A stretch of 32,154 nucleotides of DNA from Myxococcaceae bacterium (lineage in GTDB: Bacteria; Myxococcota; Myxococcia; Myxococcales; Myxococcaceae), in contig JAIBBQ010000059.1 of the NCBI GenBank assembly GCA_019694595.1, forward strand, positions 1 to 32,154, written 5' to 3'. Numbering within the stretch: the first letter of the stretch is position 1; every line of letters starts with the position of its first letter. Positions 25,259 to 32,154 of the stretch are shown here, piece by piece. Below the pieces are notes generated by a model. The model was not told the origin of the DNA, did no database searches, and saw only the letters and a program-made list of their open reading frames with translations. A program made the position numbers and the translations under genes.

Positions 25259-27805
25259 TCACTCGATCTTGCCGGGCTGCACCTGCAGGCGGTCGGGGGA
25301 AGGGGGCGGCTGCACCGGCACCGGAGAGGTGGGGTTCACCGTCACCGGCACGTCGGGCGTGCCCGGCGGCGGCGCCACCGGCGCGGCCCCTGCGGGCGCA
25401 TCGGAACCGGGCGTGGCCGACGGCACCGGGGCGATCAGCTTCTCGCCCGGCAGACCGGCGCCGCCGTTCTCGAGCTTGCCCGACTCCTTGGCCACGATCT
25501 GGTTCATGCGCGCCAGCGGGCCCGCCTTGCGCGAGTAGTCGATCACCACGTCGTAGCTGGTCGACGCGCCGTAGAACTGCTCCACGAACTGCTGCCGTTC
25601 CTTGAGCTTGCGCTCGAAGATGCGGCGGAAGTCGCTCGAGTCCTTGATGATGTACGGCGTCAGGAACAGCAGCAGGTTGGTCTTCACCTTCTTGCGCGTC
25701 TGCGAGCGGAAGAGGTTGCCCACGAGCGGGATGTCGCCGAGCAGCGGCACCTTGGACACGCCCTCGATGGTGCGGTCCTGCATGATGCCGCCGATCACCA
25801 CCGTCTCCTGGTCCTTGGCGACCACGGTGGTCTTGGCGCTGCGCTTCGAGGTGGTGGGGCCGAGCACCGGGTCGCTGGACGCGATCTCCTCGATCTGCTC
25901 GGAGATCACGAGCCGCACGTAGTCGCTCTCGTTGATCTGCGGCTTCACCGACAGCTTGAGGTCGACGTTCTGGCGGTTGATGCTGCCGAACGGCGAGCCG
26001 AGGCCGCCGAGCGCGCCCAGACCGCCGAGTGCGCCGGTGTTGAGGCCGGGAATCGAGCTGCCCAGGCCCGCCAGGCTGCCCAGCGAGCCGGTGGAGAAGC
26101 CCGACTGGAACGGCACGTTCTGGCCGACGGTGATCTCGGCTTCTTCGTTGTCGGTGGTGAGCAGGTGCGGCGTCGAGAGCACGTTGACGTCGGAGCTCTT
26201 CTGCATCGCGTTCAGCACCACGCCGAACGCGGGGATCTGGATGCCGCCCAGCGTCAGGTTGGGGATCACCGGGCCCTGCAAGCCCGCGAGGAAGCCGCCC
26301 AGGCTCGCCAGGTTGGTGAGGCTCAGGCTCGGCGGCAACCCGCCCGACGTGTACTTGGTGCCGAGGACCACGGGGATCGGGCCGTTGTCGGTGGGGATCG
26401 CCACGCCCCCGTGCAGGTTCACCCCGAGCTCCGACTGGCGGTCGAGGTTCACTTCCATGATCACCGCTTCGACGAAGACCTGCCGCCGCTGGATGTCGAG
26501 CTTCTCGATCACCCGCAGGAGCGAGCGGAAGTCGGACTGGCTGGCAATCACCACCAGCGCGTTGGTCGCCTTGTCCGCCGAGACCTTCACCTCGCCCGAG
26601 AACAGCTCCGCCGCGGTGGTGGGCCGCGCCGCGCCCGCCGCCGGGGGCGGGGTGGGGGTCTTGGGGCGGTTCGCGGTGCCCTGCGCCAGCGTCTGCAGGG
26701 TGGCCGCCACTTCCTCGGCGTTGGCGTTCTCGAGGTAGAGCACGTTGATGCGGCCTTCGCCGGAGATCGGAATGTCGATCTCGCGGATGAGCGCCATGAT
26801 CCGTTCCATCGCCGCGGGCGAGGCGATGACGATCAGCTTGTTGGTGCGCTCGTCGGGAATGAGCTGCGACAGCGTCGCCGGCCCGGTGCTCTCGGGGGTC
26901 GCGGGCGAGCCGGGCGACGCCGCCTGGTTCGCGGGCAGCGGCGCCACCGCGCCGGGGCGCTGACCCGGCCGGGGAGTGCGCGACTCGAAGAGCTTGGTGA
27001 CCTTGTCCGCGATCTCCTGCGCGGTGGCGTACTGGATCTGCAGCACCCGCACCTCGTCGCTGGAAGCGCGCGAGTCGAGCTGCTCCACCACCTTCTCGAG
27101 GCGGTGAATGTTCGAGCCCAGGTCGTTGACGATGATGGTGTCGGGCTGGAACGGAATGGTGTCGCCCGACGGGGTGACCAGCTGCTGCAGCACGCCGCGC
27201 AGCTGCTCGATCTCCACGTACTTCACCTTGAACATCCGGGTGACCATCTGCTCGTTGGTCGTGTACTCGGCGGTGGGGTCGATGATCGTCGGAATGGGGA
27301 ACTGCTTCGCGCGCTGCTTGTCGACGATCTTGAGGAACTTGCCGTGCTCGTAGACGGCCAGGCTGTTGGCATCGAGCGCGGCGAGGAACGCGGCGTAGAA
27401 CTGGTCGCCGGTCACCTCGACCTTGCCGTTCTCGGGGCCGATGATGGAGATCTTCCCGCGGATGTTCTCGGGGAGAATGAAGGTCTTGCAGGTCGCGTCG
27501 GAGACGGTCTGCACCAGCTTCTCGAGCTCGACCTTGTCGAAGTAGATGTTGTACTTCGCCTTGCGCCGCAGCTCCTCGCAGGAGCGCTTGGTGGGGGCCA
27601 CCGTGGCCTCGCCGGCCGCGGCACCTCCGGCAGCAGCGCCGCCCGCGGGCGGAGCACCGGCCGGTGCAGCACCGGGGGCAGGGGGCGTGGCGCCCAGCGG
27701 CGTCGCCTCCAGCGGGCGGAGGCGGCGGTCAGGCCGGGGGAGCTGCGGCTGCGCCAGGGCAGAGGCGGCCAGCAGGACGACGATCGCGATGAGCGGGCGG
27801 TTCAT
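25259..27805 (-). CDS. gspD: Type II secretion outer-membrane secretin D
   Basis: This 848-residue protein forms the outer-membrane channel. A signal peptide (about 1-18, ending ALA) is followed by a Pro/Ala/Gly-rich linker (30-70), the N0 domain (about 84-165), N1 to N3 (about 185-440, with Pro-rich inserts at 278-310 and 378-397), and the secretin core (443-720) with VPLLGDIPLVGNLFR (686-700). A Gly/Leu/Ser repeat (568-608, such as TGSLGSLAGLGSS and TGALGGLGALGGLG) sits in the gate-loop part of the barrel. The C-terminal 65 residues are proline-rich with no clear pilotin-binding motif. It follows gspC by 11 bp. Confidence 0.96.
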   Translation of the reverse strand: MNRPLIAIVVLLAASALAQPQLPRPDRRLRPLEATPLGATPPAPGAAPAGAPPAGGAAAGGAAAGEATVAPTKRSCEELRRKAKYNIYFDKVELEKLVQTVSDATCKTFILPENIRGKISIIGPENGKVEVTGDQFYAAFLAALDANSLAVYEHGKFLKIVDKQRAKQFPIPTIIDPTAEYTTNEQMVTRMFKVKYVEIEQLRGVLQQLVTPSGDTIPFQPDTIIVNDLGSNIHRLEKVVEQLDSRASSDEVRVLQIQYATAQEIADKVTKLFESRTPRPGQRPGAVAPLPANQAASPGSPATPESTGPATLSQLIPDERTNKLIVIASPAAMERIMALIREIDIPISGEGRINVLYLENANAEEVAATLQTLAQGTANRPKTPTPPPAAGAARPTTAAELFSGEVKVSADKATNALVVIASQSDFRSLLRVIEKLDIQRRQVFVEAVIMEVNLDRQSELGVNLHGGVAIPTDNGPIPVVLGTKYTSGGLPPSLSLTNLASLGGFLAGLQGPVIPNLTLGGIQIPAFGVVLNAMQKSSDVNVLSTPHLLTTDNEEAEITVGQNVPFQSGFSTGSLGSLAGLGSSIPGLNTGALGGLGALGGLGSPFGSINRQNVDLKLSVKPQINESDYVRLVISEQIEEIASSDPVLGPTTSKRSAKTTVVAKDQETVVIGGIMQDRTIEGVSKVPLLGDIPLVGNLFRSQTRKKVKTNLLLFLTPYIIKDSSDFRRIFERKLKERQQFVEQFYGASTSYDVVIDYSRKAGPLARMNQIVAKESGKLENGGAGLPGEKLIAPVPSATPGSDAPAGAAPVAPPPGTPDVPVTVNPTSPVPVQPPPSPDRLQVQPGKIE

Positions 27806-27816
27806 GGTCAGGGGGT

Positions 27817-28743
27817 TCAGCGGACGTTGTACGTCTTGCGCACGGCAGTGCCGTTGCGATCGACTTCGATGTCGATGCGCGAGGCCTCTTTGAGCTTGGA
27901 GTAGATCTCCAGCGCCTTCTCCGGGCTGTTCAGGTCGTACCCGTTGATGCGCTTGATGACGTCACCGTTCTGGATGCCGATCTTCGTGTAGATGGAGTCG
28001 GGGCGAATCGAGAACAGCTTGAAGCCCTGAGCGACCCCGTCCTTGAAGGCGGGCACGATGCGCGCCTGCATGGCGACGTCGTTCAGGTTGCTGAGCGTCT
28101 TGTCGATCTCCGCGCGCGGCACCTCGTACTCGTTCTCGCTGGTCGACTTGATGCTCGTGCCCAGCGCGACCGACGGCGGCGGACCGTCGCCACCCGGCCG
28201 GGCCGGCGCGGCCACCACGGGCGGCGCGGCGACGATGGGGGCCGAGCCGTCGCCCGGCGTGCCGTCGATGTACTCGCGGCGCCCGTTGTTGAGGATGATC
28301 ACCTTCTCGCGCTCGATGCTGAGCACCCGCGCCCCCTGGATGGTGTCGCCCACCAGATAGGTCTGCGTCTTGAGCGTCACCACGTCCTGGATGGAGGCGA
28401 TCGACAGTTCCTCGATGCTCGCCACCGCGGTCCCCAGCAGCTTGACGCGCAGGCTCGTGCGCACCGGCGGCGAGACCAGGTCTTCCTTGGGCGTCGATGG
28501 CTCCTTCACCACCGGCTCCGGTTCTGGCACCTTGAGGCCAGTGACCTTGGCGACCTTCTCCATGCTGAGCAGCGCCACCGGGTCGACGGTGAGCGGGCGC
28601 GATGCCGCCCTCGGCGCTCCCGACGGCACCGGCACCAGCTGCGACTCGAGGAACGCGTTGGCGGTCCGCGCGATCAGCAGCATCACCAGGCTGATGAAGA
28701 CCAGGTGGACGATCCAGAAATGTCGCTTGAAAAGAAACTCCAC
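27817..28743 (-). CDS. gspC: Type II secretion protein C with PDZ domain
   Basis: GspC connects the inner-membrane platform to the secretin. Counted from the longest frame (TTG at 28761), it has one membrane helix (about 16-35), an HR domain (about 100-165), a Pro-rich linker and a C-terminal PDZ domain (about 225-312, with IGIQNGDVIKRINGYDL). The start is uncertain: TTG 28761, GTG 28755 or GTG 28743. I chose GTG 28743, giving MEFLFKRHFWIVHLVF and 308 residues, a short cytosolic tail as usual for GspC. A sigma-54-like promoter also overlaps the upstream candidates. No start has a well-spaced ribosome-binding site. It is the first gene of the operon. Confidence 0.9.
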   Translation of the reverse strand: MEFLFKRHFWIVHLVFISLVMLLIARTANAFLESQLVPVPSGAPRAASRPLTVDPVALLSMEKVAKVTGLKVPEPEPVVKEPSTPKEDLVSPPVRTSLRVKLLGTAVASIEELSIASIQDVVTLKTQTYLVGDTIQGARVLSIEREKVIILNNGRREYIDGTPGDGSAPIVAAPPVVAAPARPGGDGPPPSVALGTSIKSTSENEYEVPRAEIDKTLSNLNDVAMQARIVPAFKDGVAQGFKLFSIRPDSIYTKIGIQNGDVIKRINGYDLNSPEKALEIYSKLKEASRIDIEVDRNGTAVRKTYNVR

Positions 28744-28756
28744 GTCGAAGGGCACC

Positions 28757-28773
28757 AGCAACGCCGGTGCCAG
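28757..28773 (-). promoter_or_regulatory. Sigma-54-like (-24/-12) promoter at gspC
   Basis: On the minus strand the sequence CTGGCACCGGCGTTGCT matches the sigma-54 consensus TGGCAC-N5-TTGCW, with the required GG-N10-GC spacing. Transcription would begin near 28746, which puts the GTG at 28743 almost at the 5' end of the message. That would imply near-leaderless translation, or that the match is fortuitous. A sigma-54 activator gene is present at 8945-10576, but nothing links it directly to this site. Confidence 0.4.
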
Positions 28774-28921: not shown

Positions 28922-29626
28922 ATGAGTGCCAGTGAGCAGGAAAGGCGTGGCTTCGCGCGCATCGAGACCTCGCTCGAGTGCACGGTGGCGACCGACGCCG
29001 ACCTGGTGAGCGCGAAGGTCAGCAACCTCTCGCGCACCGGCGCCGGGGTGCTGGCGCCCGCGGGGGCGCTCACCGTGGGGCAGTCGGTGTCGGTGATGCT
29101 GGAACGCGCGCAGGGCGAGTTCAGCCTGAGCCTGTCGGCGCAGGTGGTGCGCACCCAGCCGCAAGGCGACGAGGTGCTCTTCGGCCTGCGCTTCGAGCCA
29201 CCGCCGCCCGGGGTCGAGGAGACGCTGCTGGCGCTGCTCAAGGCGCTCGCCGAGAGCCGCGGCGACGGCCGCCGCTCGCACCGGCGGGTACAGGCGCGCA
29301 TCGAGGTGTCGTGCCGCAGCCCCGACGCGTTCCGCGCGTGGCTGGTCGACCTGTCCCAGGGGGGGCTGGCGGTGAAGTGCCCGCGCCCGGTGGAGCTGGG
29401 CTCGCAGCTCAAGGTGCAGTTCGGCATCGACGACCACCGCGGTCTGGTGGCGGTGCAGGGCGAGGTGAAGCGGGTGAGCCCGCTCGACGACGGCCGCTAC
29501 CTGGTGGGCTTGCAGTTCGAGCCGCCCTCGGAAGAGCACCGCCAGCGCGTCGAGAAGCTGCTCTCGGTGCTCCTCGGCCTGGGCCCCCGCCAGGGCATGA
29601 TCCTGGAAGACGACGGGGAGCCCTGA
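28922..29626 (+). CDS. Tandem PilZ-domain protein (putative c-di-GMP effector)
   Basis: A 234-residue cytosolic protein made of two PilZ domains. The first has RGFAR (R9-x3-R13) and NLSRTG (N35-x-S37-x2-G40). The second has RRSHRR (R118-x3-R122) and DLSQGG (D143-x-S145-x2-G148). These RxxxR and D/NxSxxG motifs are the known c-di-GMP contacts, and both domains keep them. There is no output domain besides PilZ, so it likely acts by binding a partner. It is divergent from gspC, which makes the secretion operon or its machinery a natural but unproven target. The start has GGGGAA upstream. Confidence 0.9.
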   Translation: MSASEQERRGFARIETSLECTVATDADLVSAKVSNLSRTGAGVLAPAGALTVGQSVSVMLERAQGEFSLSLSAQVVRTQPQGDEVLFGLRFEPPPPGVEETLLALLKALAESRGDGRRSHRRVQARIEVSCRSPDAFRAWLVDLSQGGLAVKCPRPVELGSQLKVQFGIDDHRGLVAVQGEVKRVSPLDDGRYLVGLQFEPPSEEHRQRVEKLLSVLLGLGPRQGMILEDDGEP

Positions 29627-29655: not shown

Positions 29656-31039
29656 TCAGTCCGCGGCGAGCGGTGCCCAGCGGTGCTGCGCCGCCAGCTC
29701 GGCGATCAGCGCCCTGCGCGTTGGCCGCGTCCGCACCGCCGAGCGACGGGAGCGCGGCGCGCAGCTTGGGCTCGGCGAAGCGGCCCAGCCCGAGGATCTT
29801 CGCCCGGGCGGTCGACGGCGCGGTGGCGAGCTCCTTCGCCCAGGCCGCGACCTGCTGCTCTTCCGCGCTGGAGAGCGCCTCCACGCGGATCACCATGGTG
29901 CGCTTCACCGTGGCGGGCGCCGGCGTGATGGTGAGCGGAATGGTGGCGTCGATCTGCGCCGCGGGCAGCAGGTAGAGCACGCGCTGCCCCGGGGTGCGGA
30001 AGTACGAGCGCTGCCAGGTGTGCACCATGGCCTTCGCCTCGTCGGTGTAGAGCCCGTCGGCCACCAGCAGCGTCTCGAGCTGGGTCGACAGCTCGGCCAC
30101 GAAGCGGTCCATCGGGAGCACCTCGCCGTCGAACTGGAACACCTCGGTCTCGCCCGGGGGCAGGTCCTTGTGCACCGCGAAGCTGCCGCCCGTCGCGGTG
30201 ACCTTCATGGTGATGATCCCCCGGAGCGTCTGCGCGGTCGGCGCGCTCTGCAGCACCGGCGTGCCCTTGGCCTCGGCCACCGTCATCGGCAGGGAGAAGT
30301 TGCCGAGGCCCCGGTAGAAGAGGAAGCGCTCGTGCTGCGCCAGTCCGCCCTGCGGCGGCGCCACCTCGAGCGTGTTGGAAGCCACCTCGCGCGAGAAGCC
30401 CCAGGTGCCGGCGCCGATGGGGCTCGCCAGGGAAGGCTGGGCCTCGGGCGCCAGCACCTTGACCGTGCCCCAGTCGAGCACGCCGCCCTTCTGCGCAGTG
30501 AAGCGGCTCGCGCACTCCGCCGGCATGGAGACGTTGGCCATGGTCCACGGGTCGTCGGGCGCGGCGGGGCTCCCGTACAGGAACGGCTCGAAGCGCTGCA
30601 CGTACGGGAACCACTGGGTGAACAGCCCCTCGGGGAAGGCGACCTTCACCTGCACGTCGCGCGCGGTCGGCGAATAGAAGTACGTGACCGGGGTCTCCAT
30701 CTTCTGCACCGCGCCGGGGGTGACCTTGGCCGCGGCGATGCGGTCGGCGACGAAGCCGGGGAGGTCCTCTTCCTCGTGGTGGAGCCCCTGCACCAGCTGG
30801 CCGGTGCTGGTCATCACCGAGGTGAGGGTGCCCCACTCGTGCACCACGAAGCCGTCGGTGCCGGGGTGGTAGCTGCGGCAGCCGGCGCAGCCGGGCGCGC
30901 CGCCGCCGGTCGCCGAGGCGCCACCTCCGCCCGAGCCGGTGAGGCGCTCGCCGCTCCCGCCTCCGGAACCATCCTGAATCGCAGGGCCCCGCCCACAGGC
31001 GAAGGCCACGCAGCACGCCACCACGAGAGTCCAGCGCAT
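29656..31039 (-). CDS. VHEWGT-motif lipoprotein, frameshifted near its 3' end
   Basis: A lipoprotein of about 460 residues once a single-base shift is allowed. The N-terminus MRWTLVVACCVAFACG has cysteines at 9, 10 and 15 that could be lipidated; a Gly/Ser-rich linker (20-50) and a CAGC (51-54) follow. The conserved part begins FVVHEWGT (64-71) with KMETPVTYFYS (113-123) and FPYVQRFEPF (144-153), a motif set I recall from myxobacteria and planctomycetes with no known function. In GGG at 29712-29714 one extra base breaks the frame. Dropping it restores QALIAELAAQHRWAPLAAD and a TGA at 29656-29658. As written, the frame runs on antisense through the whole PilZ gene to 28898. The start has AAAGGA seven bases upstream. 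Confidence 0.75.
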
Positions 31040-31079
31040 CGAAGAGTCCTTTCGAGAAAGTCCGTCCGGCCGCGCGCCA

Positions 31080-31105
31080 GGTATGCCGGGCACGAAAAAA
31101 GGGAC
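31080..31105 (-). promoter_or_regulatory. Left arm of a 26-bp inverted repeat: promoter/operator element facing the lipoprotein gene
   Basis: On the minus strand this reads GTCCCTTTTTTCGTGCCC and then GGCATACC. It matches the right arm (31133-31158) in 21 of 26 bases, in the outward orientation, with a perfect 12-base core (GGTATGCCGGGC on the plus strand). It ends 41 bases before the lipoprotein ATG, a normal promoter distance. It may be a -35/-10 pair read by the adjacent ECF sigma factor, or an operator; the sequence alone does not decide. Confidence 0.5.
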
Positions 31106-31132
31106 GCGGGCGGTGGCGCTCGCGGCCGTTTT

Positions 31133-31158
31133 GTCCTCTTTTCCCGGCCCGGCATACC
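31133..31158 (+). promoter_or_regulatory. Right arm of the 26-bp inverted repeat: element facing the sigma-factor gene
   Basis: On the plus strand this reads GTCCTCTTTTCCCGGCCC and then GGCATACC, the same element as the left arm in mirror orientation. The end of it, CCCGG-CATA-CCGGG (31148-31161), is itself a perfect short palindrome that runs into the GGGAGG before the sigma-factor gene. If GGCATACC is a -10 element, transcription would start near 31165, very close to the GTG at 31165 and the ATG at 31177. Confidence 0.5.
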
Positions 31159-31176
31159 GGGAGGGTGCGGACGGCC

Positions 31177-31767
31177 ATGTCGCCGGACCAGGACGTCGCA
31201 GGGAGCAGCCTCGCGGTGCGCTTCGCCAGTGGCGAGCGCGCCGGGCTTTCGCTCGCCTACGACGCGCTGGCGCCGCAGGTGAGACGGTGGGTGCGGAGGT
31301 TCTTCCAGCGCCCCTTCGAGCAGGAGGAGGCCGTGCAGGAAGTCTGGCTGACCGCCCACCGCATGCAGCGCCAGTTCGACGCCGGCCGCGCGCCGCTCGG
31401 CGCGTGGCTGCGCGCGCTCACCGCCAACAAGTGCCGCGAGCTCCTGCGCGCGCAGGGGCGGCGGCCCCGCGCCGACGTGCCGCTGGACGACGTCGAGAAC
31501 GCGGCGTGGCTCGATGCCGAGAGCCCCGAAGACAGCGCGTTCCGCTCGCGCGCGGCGGCGGTGCTCACCCGGTTCATCGAAGGCCTGCCCGAGGAAGAAG
31601 CGGCGGTGCTCAAGGGCGCGCTGGTCGAAGGCCAGACGCACGAGGAGCTGGCCAGAGCGCTCGCCACCTCGGTGCGCCGCTCGAAGTACCTCAAGCTGAA
31701 GCTCCTGGAGAAGGCCGCGCGGGACCCCGAGCTGCTCGCCCTGGCGCGAGAGTGGAGAGGCGCATGA
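31177..31767 (+). CDS. ECF-type RNA polymerase sigma factor
   Basis: A 196-residue sigma-70-family protein with region 2 (about 26-93, including QEEAVQEVWLTAHRM, 49-63, and RAPLGAWLRALTANKCRELLR) and region 4 (about 125-180). The region 4 helix-turn-helix is degenerate, GQTHEELARALATSVRRSKYLKLKLLEKA, with Ser-Val-Arg-Arg where most ECFs have a turn then TVKSR. The ATG at 31177 is chosen; a GTG at 31165 would add four residues and would fit a leaderless message from the upstream element. Its stop overlaps the anti-sigma ATG by 4 bp, the usual ECF/anti-sigma pairing. Confidence 0.88.
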   Translation: MSPDQDVAGSSLAVRFASGERAGLSLAYDALAPQVRRWVRRFFQRPFEQEEAVQEVWLTAHRMQRQFDAGRAPLGAWLRALTANKCRELLRAQGRRPRADVPLDDVENAAWLDAESPEDSAFRSRAAAVLTRFIEGLPEEEAAVLKGALVEGQTHEELARALATSVRRSKYLKLKLLEKAARDPELLALAREWRGA

Positions 31768-32154
31768 GCCACGGTCAGCCCATCGAGGCCGCGGTGCTGG
31801 GCGAGCTCGCGCCCGAGGCCGAAGGCGCCTTCCGCGCGCACCTGGAGACGTGCGACGCCTGCCGCGCGGAGTACGACGAGCGCCGGGCGCTGGCCGCGCT
31901 GCTCTTCGCGGAAGACGGCGCTCCGAGCGAGAAGGCGCGCGTGTTCGCCGCGCTCCCGGCCGAGGAGGCCGGCCTCGCGAAGGCCGGGTGGTGGAGGTGG
32001 GCGCTGGGCGCCGCGCTCGCCGGTGCGGTCGCCGTGGTGGCCGCCACCGGGCTCGGGCCGCGCGCGGCGGTCGGCGACGTCACCCTGCGCGGCGGCGACG
32101 AGCGGCCGCGCAGCGACGTCTCGCTGTCGGTCTACGCCAAGCGCGACGGCGAGC
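31764..32154 (+). CDS. Zinc-finger anti-sigma factor (partial, runs off the window)
   Basis: The visible 130 residues begin MSHGQPIEAAVLGELAPEAE. They contain H26-x3-C30-x2-C33 (HLETCDAC), the zinc-binding signature of ZAS-type anti-sigma domains, which normally mask the sigma factor in the cytosol. A membrane helix follows (about 76-98, WWRWALGAALAGAVAVVAATGLG), then the start of a periplasmic domain (TLRGGDERPRSDVSLSVYAKRDG), cut by the window end. The ATG overlaps the sigma-factor TGA (ATGA), so the pair is made together and stoichiometry is likely set by coupling. The signal sensed is unknown. Confidence 0.88.
   Translation, partial: MSHGQPIEAAVLGELAPEAEGAFRAHLETCDACRAEYDERRALAALLFAEDGAPSEKARVFAALPAEEAGLAKAGWWRWALGAALAGAVAVVAATGLGPRAAVGDVTLRGGDERPRSDVSLSVYAKRDGE

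Follow-up and report, generated by a model that had tools for sequence, protein, structure and literature searches.

An inverted repeat as the probable divergent promoters of an ECF sigma factor gene and a VHEWGT lipoprotein gene in a Myxococcaceae bacterium

The window analysed here, a stretch of 32,154 nucleotides from a Myxococcaceae bacterium, carries a 26-bp imperfect inverted repeat between two divergently oriented genes. Judging from its sequence and its recurrence in relatives, this repeat very probably represents the promoter read by the adjacent ECF sigma factor in two divergent copies, one serving the ECF gene itself and the other a gene for a VHEWGT lipoprotein (Table 1). The underlying two-box motif is conserved, is associated with ECF-bearing genomes and is positioned before lipoprotein genes.

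The inverted repeat and its flanking genes

The first-pass annotation had described two copies of one element, matching in 21 of 26 bases with a perfect 12-base core (GGTATGCCGGGC) and facing outward toward the divergent lipoprotein and ECF genes. The coordinates and strands confirm this arrangement: one copy points to the lipoprotein gene (ATG 31039, minus strand), from which it is separated by 42 nt, and the other to the ECF gene (GTG 31165 or ATG 31177, plus strand). A repeat search delimited the arms as 31077–31105 and 31133–31161, which are 79% complementary and 27 nt apart. In order to assess the repeat against chance, the 125-nt intergenic region was shuffled 300 times with dinucleotides preserved, and the best 26-mer inverted repeat was scored each time. 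No shuffle reached 21/26 (mean 15.3 matches, maximum 19), and an exact 12-base core alone was obtained in 1/300. In the 7.28-Mb genome the core occurs exactly twice, both times here, and the pattern GTCC-N14/15-GGCATA likewise matches at two sites, which are these arms. The reversed control pattern matches three times, so that a few chance matches are unsurprising and the telling point is that both sites fall within one 125-nt gap. When two mismatches were allowed, the genome yielded 319 matches against 347 for reversed controls, which amounts to noise apart from the two perfect sites.

The ECF gene encodes a protein of 200 aa in which Sigma70 region 2 scores above the Pfam cutoff and region 4 below its own (E 3e-4). 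The sigma70-ECF superfamily score is 58.6 bits (cutoff 42.9) and the profile matches solved ECF structures, so that the protein has the composition of group IV factors, i.e. small and with regions 2 and 4 only, the latter being sub-cutoff. Two start codons are available, GTG 31165, located 8 nt past GGCATA, and ATG 31177, located 20 nt past it. Three orthologs have GTG-TCG 11 nt past GGCATA, and a similar Met-Ser start favours ATG 31177 in the window. The ECF mRNA would be near-leaderless if GTG 31165 were used, and would not be if ATG 31177 were.

The product of the overlapping downstream gene matches zf-HC2 (26.2 bits, Pfam cutoff 22.2) and carries an H-x3-C-x2-C zinc-binding motif (HLETCDAC) as well as a hydrophobic segment, as do anti-sigma factors of the ZAS type, whose genes overlap and follow those of their sigma factors. 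Full-length versions are found in relatives, the operons of which continue with a caspase (Peptidase_C14) protein, the domain scoring just above the cutoff and being preceded by an apparent signal peptide; in the window the position of this gene would fall past the contig end. The ECF and its anti-sigma are the only regulator genes evident at the locus.

The reading frame of the lipoprotein gene appears to be broken. The ending HRWAPLAAD (stop at 29656–29658) resembles that of the homolog in genome G037 but sits in a different frame, which is most simply explained by an assembly error or a recent frameshift involving an apparent one-base insertion. The lipoprotein has no Pfam match, and a literature search for VHEWGT returned nothing. 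An AlphaFold model (pLDDT 72) gave low-TM matches only (0.1–0.4), to mu-adaptin-like and transglutaminase chains, to which we attach no meaning. Homologs are present in 10 of 145 genomes, the closest two (50%) being those of G037 and G089; in the latter, the contig ends close to the expected promoter position. Distant homologs in G133, G134 and G136 (34–36% identity) were treated as paralogs, and the motif was absent from their fetched neighbourhoods. The neighbourhood in the window also contains the type II secretion genes gspD (25259–27805, minus strand) and gspC (27817–28761, minus strand) and, beside them, a gene for a double PilZ-domain protein (28922–29626, plus strand).

Table 1. Features of the ECF–lipoprotein locus and of the corresponding operons in relatives.
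Feature	Position	Strand	Remarks
VHEWGT lipoprotein gene	29656..31039	-	apparent one-base frameshift near 29710-29716, before the last ~20 codons
Candidate promoter copy facing lipoprotein gene	31080..31105	-	GTCC (putative -35) 31102-31105, T-run, GGCATA (putative -10) 31082-31087, then CC
Candidate promoter copy facing ECF gene	31133..31158	+	TTTTGTCC; GTCC (putative -35) 31133-31136, T-run, GGCATA (putative -10) 31151-31156, then CC
ECF sigma factor gene	31165..31767	+	Sigma70_r2 E 9e-13; sigma70-ECF superfamily above cutoff; orthologs
Anti-sigma factor gene	31764..32154	+	overlaps ECF stop (ATGA); truncated at contig end
Caspase-domain protein gene after ECF and anti-sigma genes (relatives)	L117:7265-8935; L114:7265-8938; L119:5625-6221

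Recurrence of the element before ECF orthologs and lipoprotein genes

Orthologs of the ECF, 44–56% identical, are present in eight more genomes from the order, and all other matches are much weaker; most of the relatives are metagenome assemblies. In seven of them (orthologs 48–56% identical) the element, identified by reading the upstream sequences without a motif search, lies directly before the ECF gene, in the form GTCC-N14-GGCATA in five, with GTTC in G128 and with a 15-nt spacer in G085. The eighth genome, G037, belongs to another family, and there the VHEWGT gene is located upstream of the ECF gene in the same direction, with TTTGTCC-N15-GGCATA 21 nt before the VHEWGT ATG. The element has thus been retained although the orientation of the genes changed, which argues for a promoter serving both of them. 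Absence of the element upstream of orthologous ECF genes had been named beforehand as counting against the proposal that the ECF drives itself and the lipoprotein through one promoter type; its presence in the seven relatives and before the VHEWGT–ECF pair of G037 supports that proposal instead. More distant ECF genes are not preceded by the motif.

The first-pass annotation had further suggested a search for the motif before other genes. In the bacterium's own genome this yielded the two arms only, whereas in relatives it led to lipoprotein genes, a wider regulon that the annotation had not foreseen. A scan of 145 genomes with TTGTCCN{14,15}GGCATA revealed extra sites in ECF-bearing genomes, located before lipoprotein genes. 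A second pattern, which demanded a downstream ATG (7–12 nt allowed), was then applied to 14 genomes that carry the ECF or the lipoprotein or both, together with G132 from the same genus. It matched at 24 sites, 23 of which are in ECF-bearing genomes and one in G134, while the reversed control matched at 2. The G134 site precedes a lipoprotein gene, and no ECF ortholog was found in that genome, which is 85% complete. The frames downstream start with a lipoprotein signal in 22/24 cases; lipoboxes, including LQAC and PMAC, were judged by eye, the automatic test having missed two real ones and accepted some false ones among the controls. Among 14 relatives lacking the ECF, by contrast, the pattern matched at 8 sites, and no credible lipoprotein gene followed any of them (Fisher p = 4e-6). 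G132 and G135, which share a genus with several carriers, lack both the ECF ortholog and the site. Without the ATG condition, 48 sites were retrieved from eight ECF genomes against 31 for the reversed control. Of the 48, 29 stand before an ECF gene, a lipoprotein gene or the gene of one other exported protein, and the remaining 19 lie elsewhere; the bare pattern is noisy, and the evidence is therefore carried by the downstream context.

All-against-all comparison divided the 22 lipoproteins into eight sets, five of which span at least two genomes, mostly at 28–60% identity; the link between G133_C124 and G136_C27 in this grouping may reflect low-complexity repeats. Nine motif-preceded lipoproteins were checked against Pfam and none scored above the cutoff. 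That the motif persists before lipoproteins whose sequences now share only about 30% identity suggests selection. Two further sites were noted. In G085 a second TTTGTCC-N15-GGCATA near the ECF operon (L045:3590, minus strand) lies 44 nt before the gene for an exported protein with a MYXO-CTERM-like tail, which is not a lipoprotein. At L203 (G128:C600:19595), GTCC-N15-GGCATA stands 79 nt before the gene for a lipoprotein of 473 aa, which may belong to the regulon and would then have a longer leader.

Taken over 33 sites, the motif reads KTGTCC-YCTTTT-n8-C-GGCATA-C, with GTCC as the putative -35 and GGCATA as the putative -10 box, and the spacing between the two is constant at 14–15 nt. GTCC is preceded by T in 30 sites and followed by a T-run, and GGCATA has a C on its 5' side in 27 sites and on its 3' side in 24. 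None of these flanking columns was imposed by the search, except for the T in sites first found with TTGTCC. The distance from GGCATA to the ATG is 8–10 nt in 21 of 22 lipoprotein sites, so that the mRNAs of those genes should be leaderless or nearly so; if transcription starts 5–9 nt past the -10 box, the leaders would measure about 0–5 nt. The VHEWGT genes deviate: the distance is 42 nt in the window and 21 nt in G037, and their ATG is preceded by a purine-rich stretch. The literature that we searched nowhere mentions the motif, and no leaderless ECF lipoprotein regulon was found in it.

Alternative explanations of the repeat

Symmetry of this quality, with a near-perfect 26-base match and a perfect 12-base core, is also what one would expect if a dimeric repressor or activator bound the arms as paired operators, the symmetry itself then being functional, and the first-pass annotation had considered operators of a dimeric repressor an equally good explanation. 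That parity is not borne out by the relatives. At 30 sites examined there, no inverted TATGCC partner is found within 150 nt upstream, i.e. the inverted pair is not kept at the target genes; relatives hold single copies, and the operator reading loses for this reason, the symmetry in the window reflecting divergent promoters rather than paired operators. The two-box layout with its 14–15 nt spacing, the near-fixed distance to the ATG and the lack of any evident regulator gene beyond the ECF and anti-sigma genes point the same way, and we regard paired operators as very unlikely. The likelihood that the repeat arose by chance in GC-rich intergenic DNA, or that it acts as a terminator or hairpin in RNA, is close to negligible: short inverted repeats are common in such DNA and an exact 12-base arm did arise in one shuffle, but no shuffle attained the full match, the element recurs upstream of orthologs, and a terminator is unexpected between divergent gene starts.

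Somewhat harder to set aside, albeit still improbable, is the reading in which the motif is a promoter that is activator-dependent or read by a different sigma factor and has been co-inherited with the ECF, which would then be a target and not the reader. The association of motif and ECF is one of co-occurrence, the lipoprotein site of G134 stands in a genome with no detected ECF ortholog, and both boxes are non-canonical for an ECF. Against this, wherever the element accompanies an ortholog it lies directly before the ECF gene, in the window and the seven relatives alike, as expected under autoregulation; same-genus genomes without the ECF are without sites; and the distribution of the motif follows this ECF clade, more distant ECFs being without it.

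Proposed mechanism and comparison with known systems

If the repeat consists of divergent ECF promoters, the membrane-anchored zinc-finger anti-sigma encoded by the overlapping gene would hold the ECF until an envelope signal arrives. The freed sigma would then bind, direct RNA polymerase to the consensus element and set the transcription starts, raising expression of its own operon, including the caspase-like gene in relatives, and of the VHEWGT lipoprotein. This sigma may also serve, in relatives, a set of otherwise unrelated envelope lipoprotein genes. We slightly favour the broader interpretation that this is a family of myxobacterial ECFs which has a non-canonical promoter of its own (GTCC / GGCATA), is dedicated to switching on a battery of mutually unrelated surface lipoproteins by way of leaderless mRNAs and is endowed with a zinc-finger anti-sigma and a secreted caspase-like operon partner. 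The analysis offers a motif and a testable regulon for an uncharacterised ECF sigma, and it suggests how the VHEWGT lipoproteins may be regulated. One switch would unite about eight lipoprotein groups, of which the tested ones lack Pfam matches above the cutoff, and the near-leaderless geometry allows predictions at the nucleotide level.

Autoregulated ECFs with zinc-finger (ZAS, class I) anti-sigma factors resemble the present system in the overlapping anti-sigma gene, the putative zinc-binding domain, the hydrophobic segment and the element before their own operon. They differ in their boxes, AAC / CGT (PMC8103513) as opposed to GTCC / GGCATA, and the targets here are lipoproteins with near-leaderless geometry. 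The copper-dependent CorE of Myxococcus xanthus is likewise an ECF from a myxobacterium, and a two-box motif delimits its small regulon (PMC3107203). However, it was AAC in the -35 region, where GTCC stands here, that led to the CorE-type promoters (PMC3107203), and CorE is controlled by a metal-sensing extension at its own C-terminus (PMC8999054) and not by a zinc-finger anti-sigma.

Our search for literature on ECFs and caspases returned a single review, which mentions ECF54, a group with caspase/CHAT proteins in the gene neighbourhood (PMC8999054). A caspase-family gene beside the ECF gene is a likeness seen in relatives. According to its description, ECF54 functions with no anti-sigma, whereas in the relatives a zinc-finger anti-sigma gene lies between the ECF gene and the caspase-like gene, which is thus third and whose product has an apparent signal peptide at its start. 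We therefore do not assign the present ECF to ECF54.

The boxes AAC (-35) and CGT (-10) are typical of ECF promoters (PMC8103513, PMC3107203) and are no longer required of all ECFs (PMC8103513); the 33 sites described above have GTCC / GGCATA in their place. AAC-like/CGTA boxes were seen in two distant relatives only, G149 and G153 (loci L134 and L135), where the gene of a distant ECF is likewise divergent from a lipoprotein gene. The lipoprotein side there carries CAACC-N16-CGTAC and the sigma side TCC-N16-CGTAT, with a spacing equal to that of GTCC-N16-CATA. As a lead only, noticed post hoc at two related loci, these boxes would connect GTCC / GGCATA to the canonical AAC / CGT.
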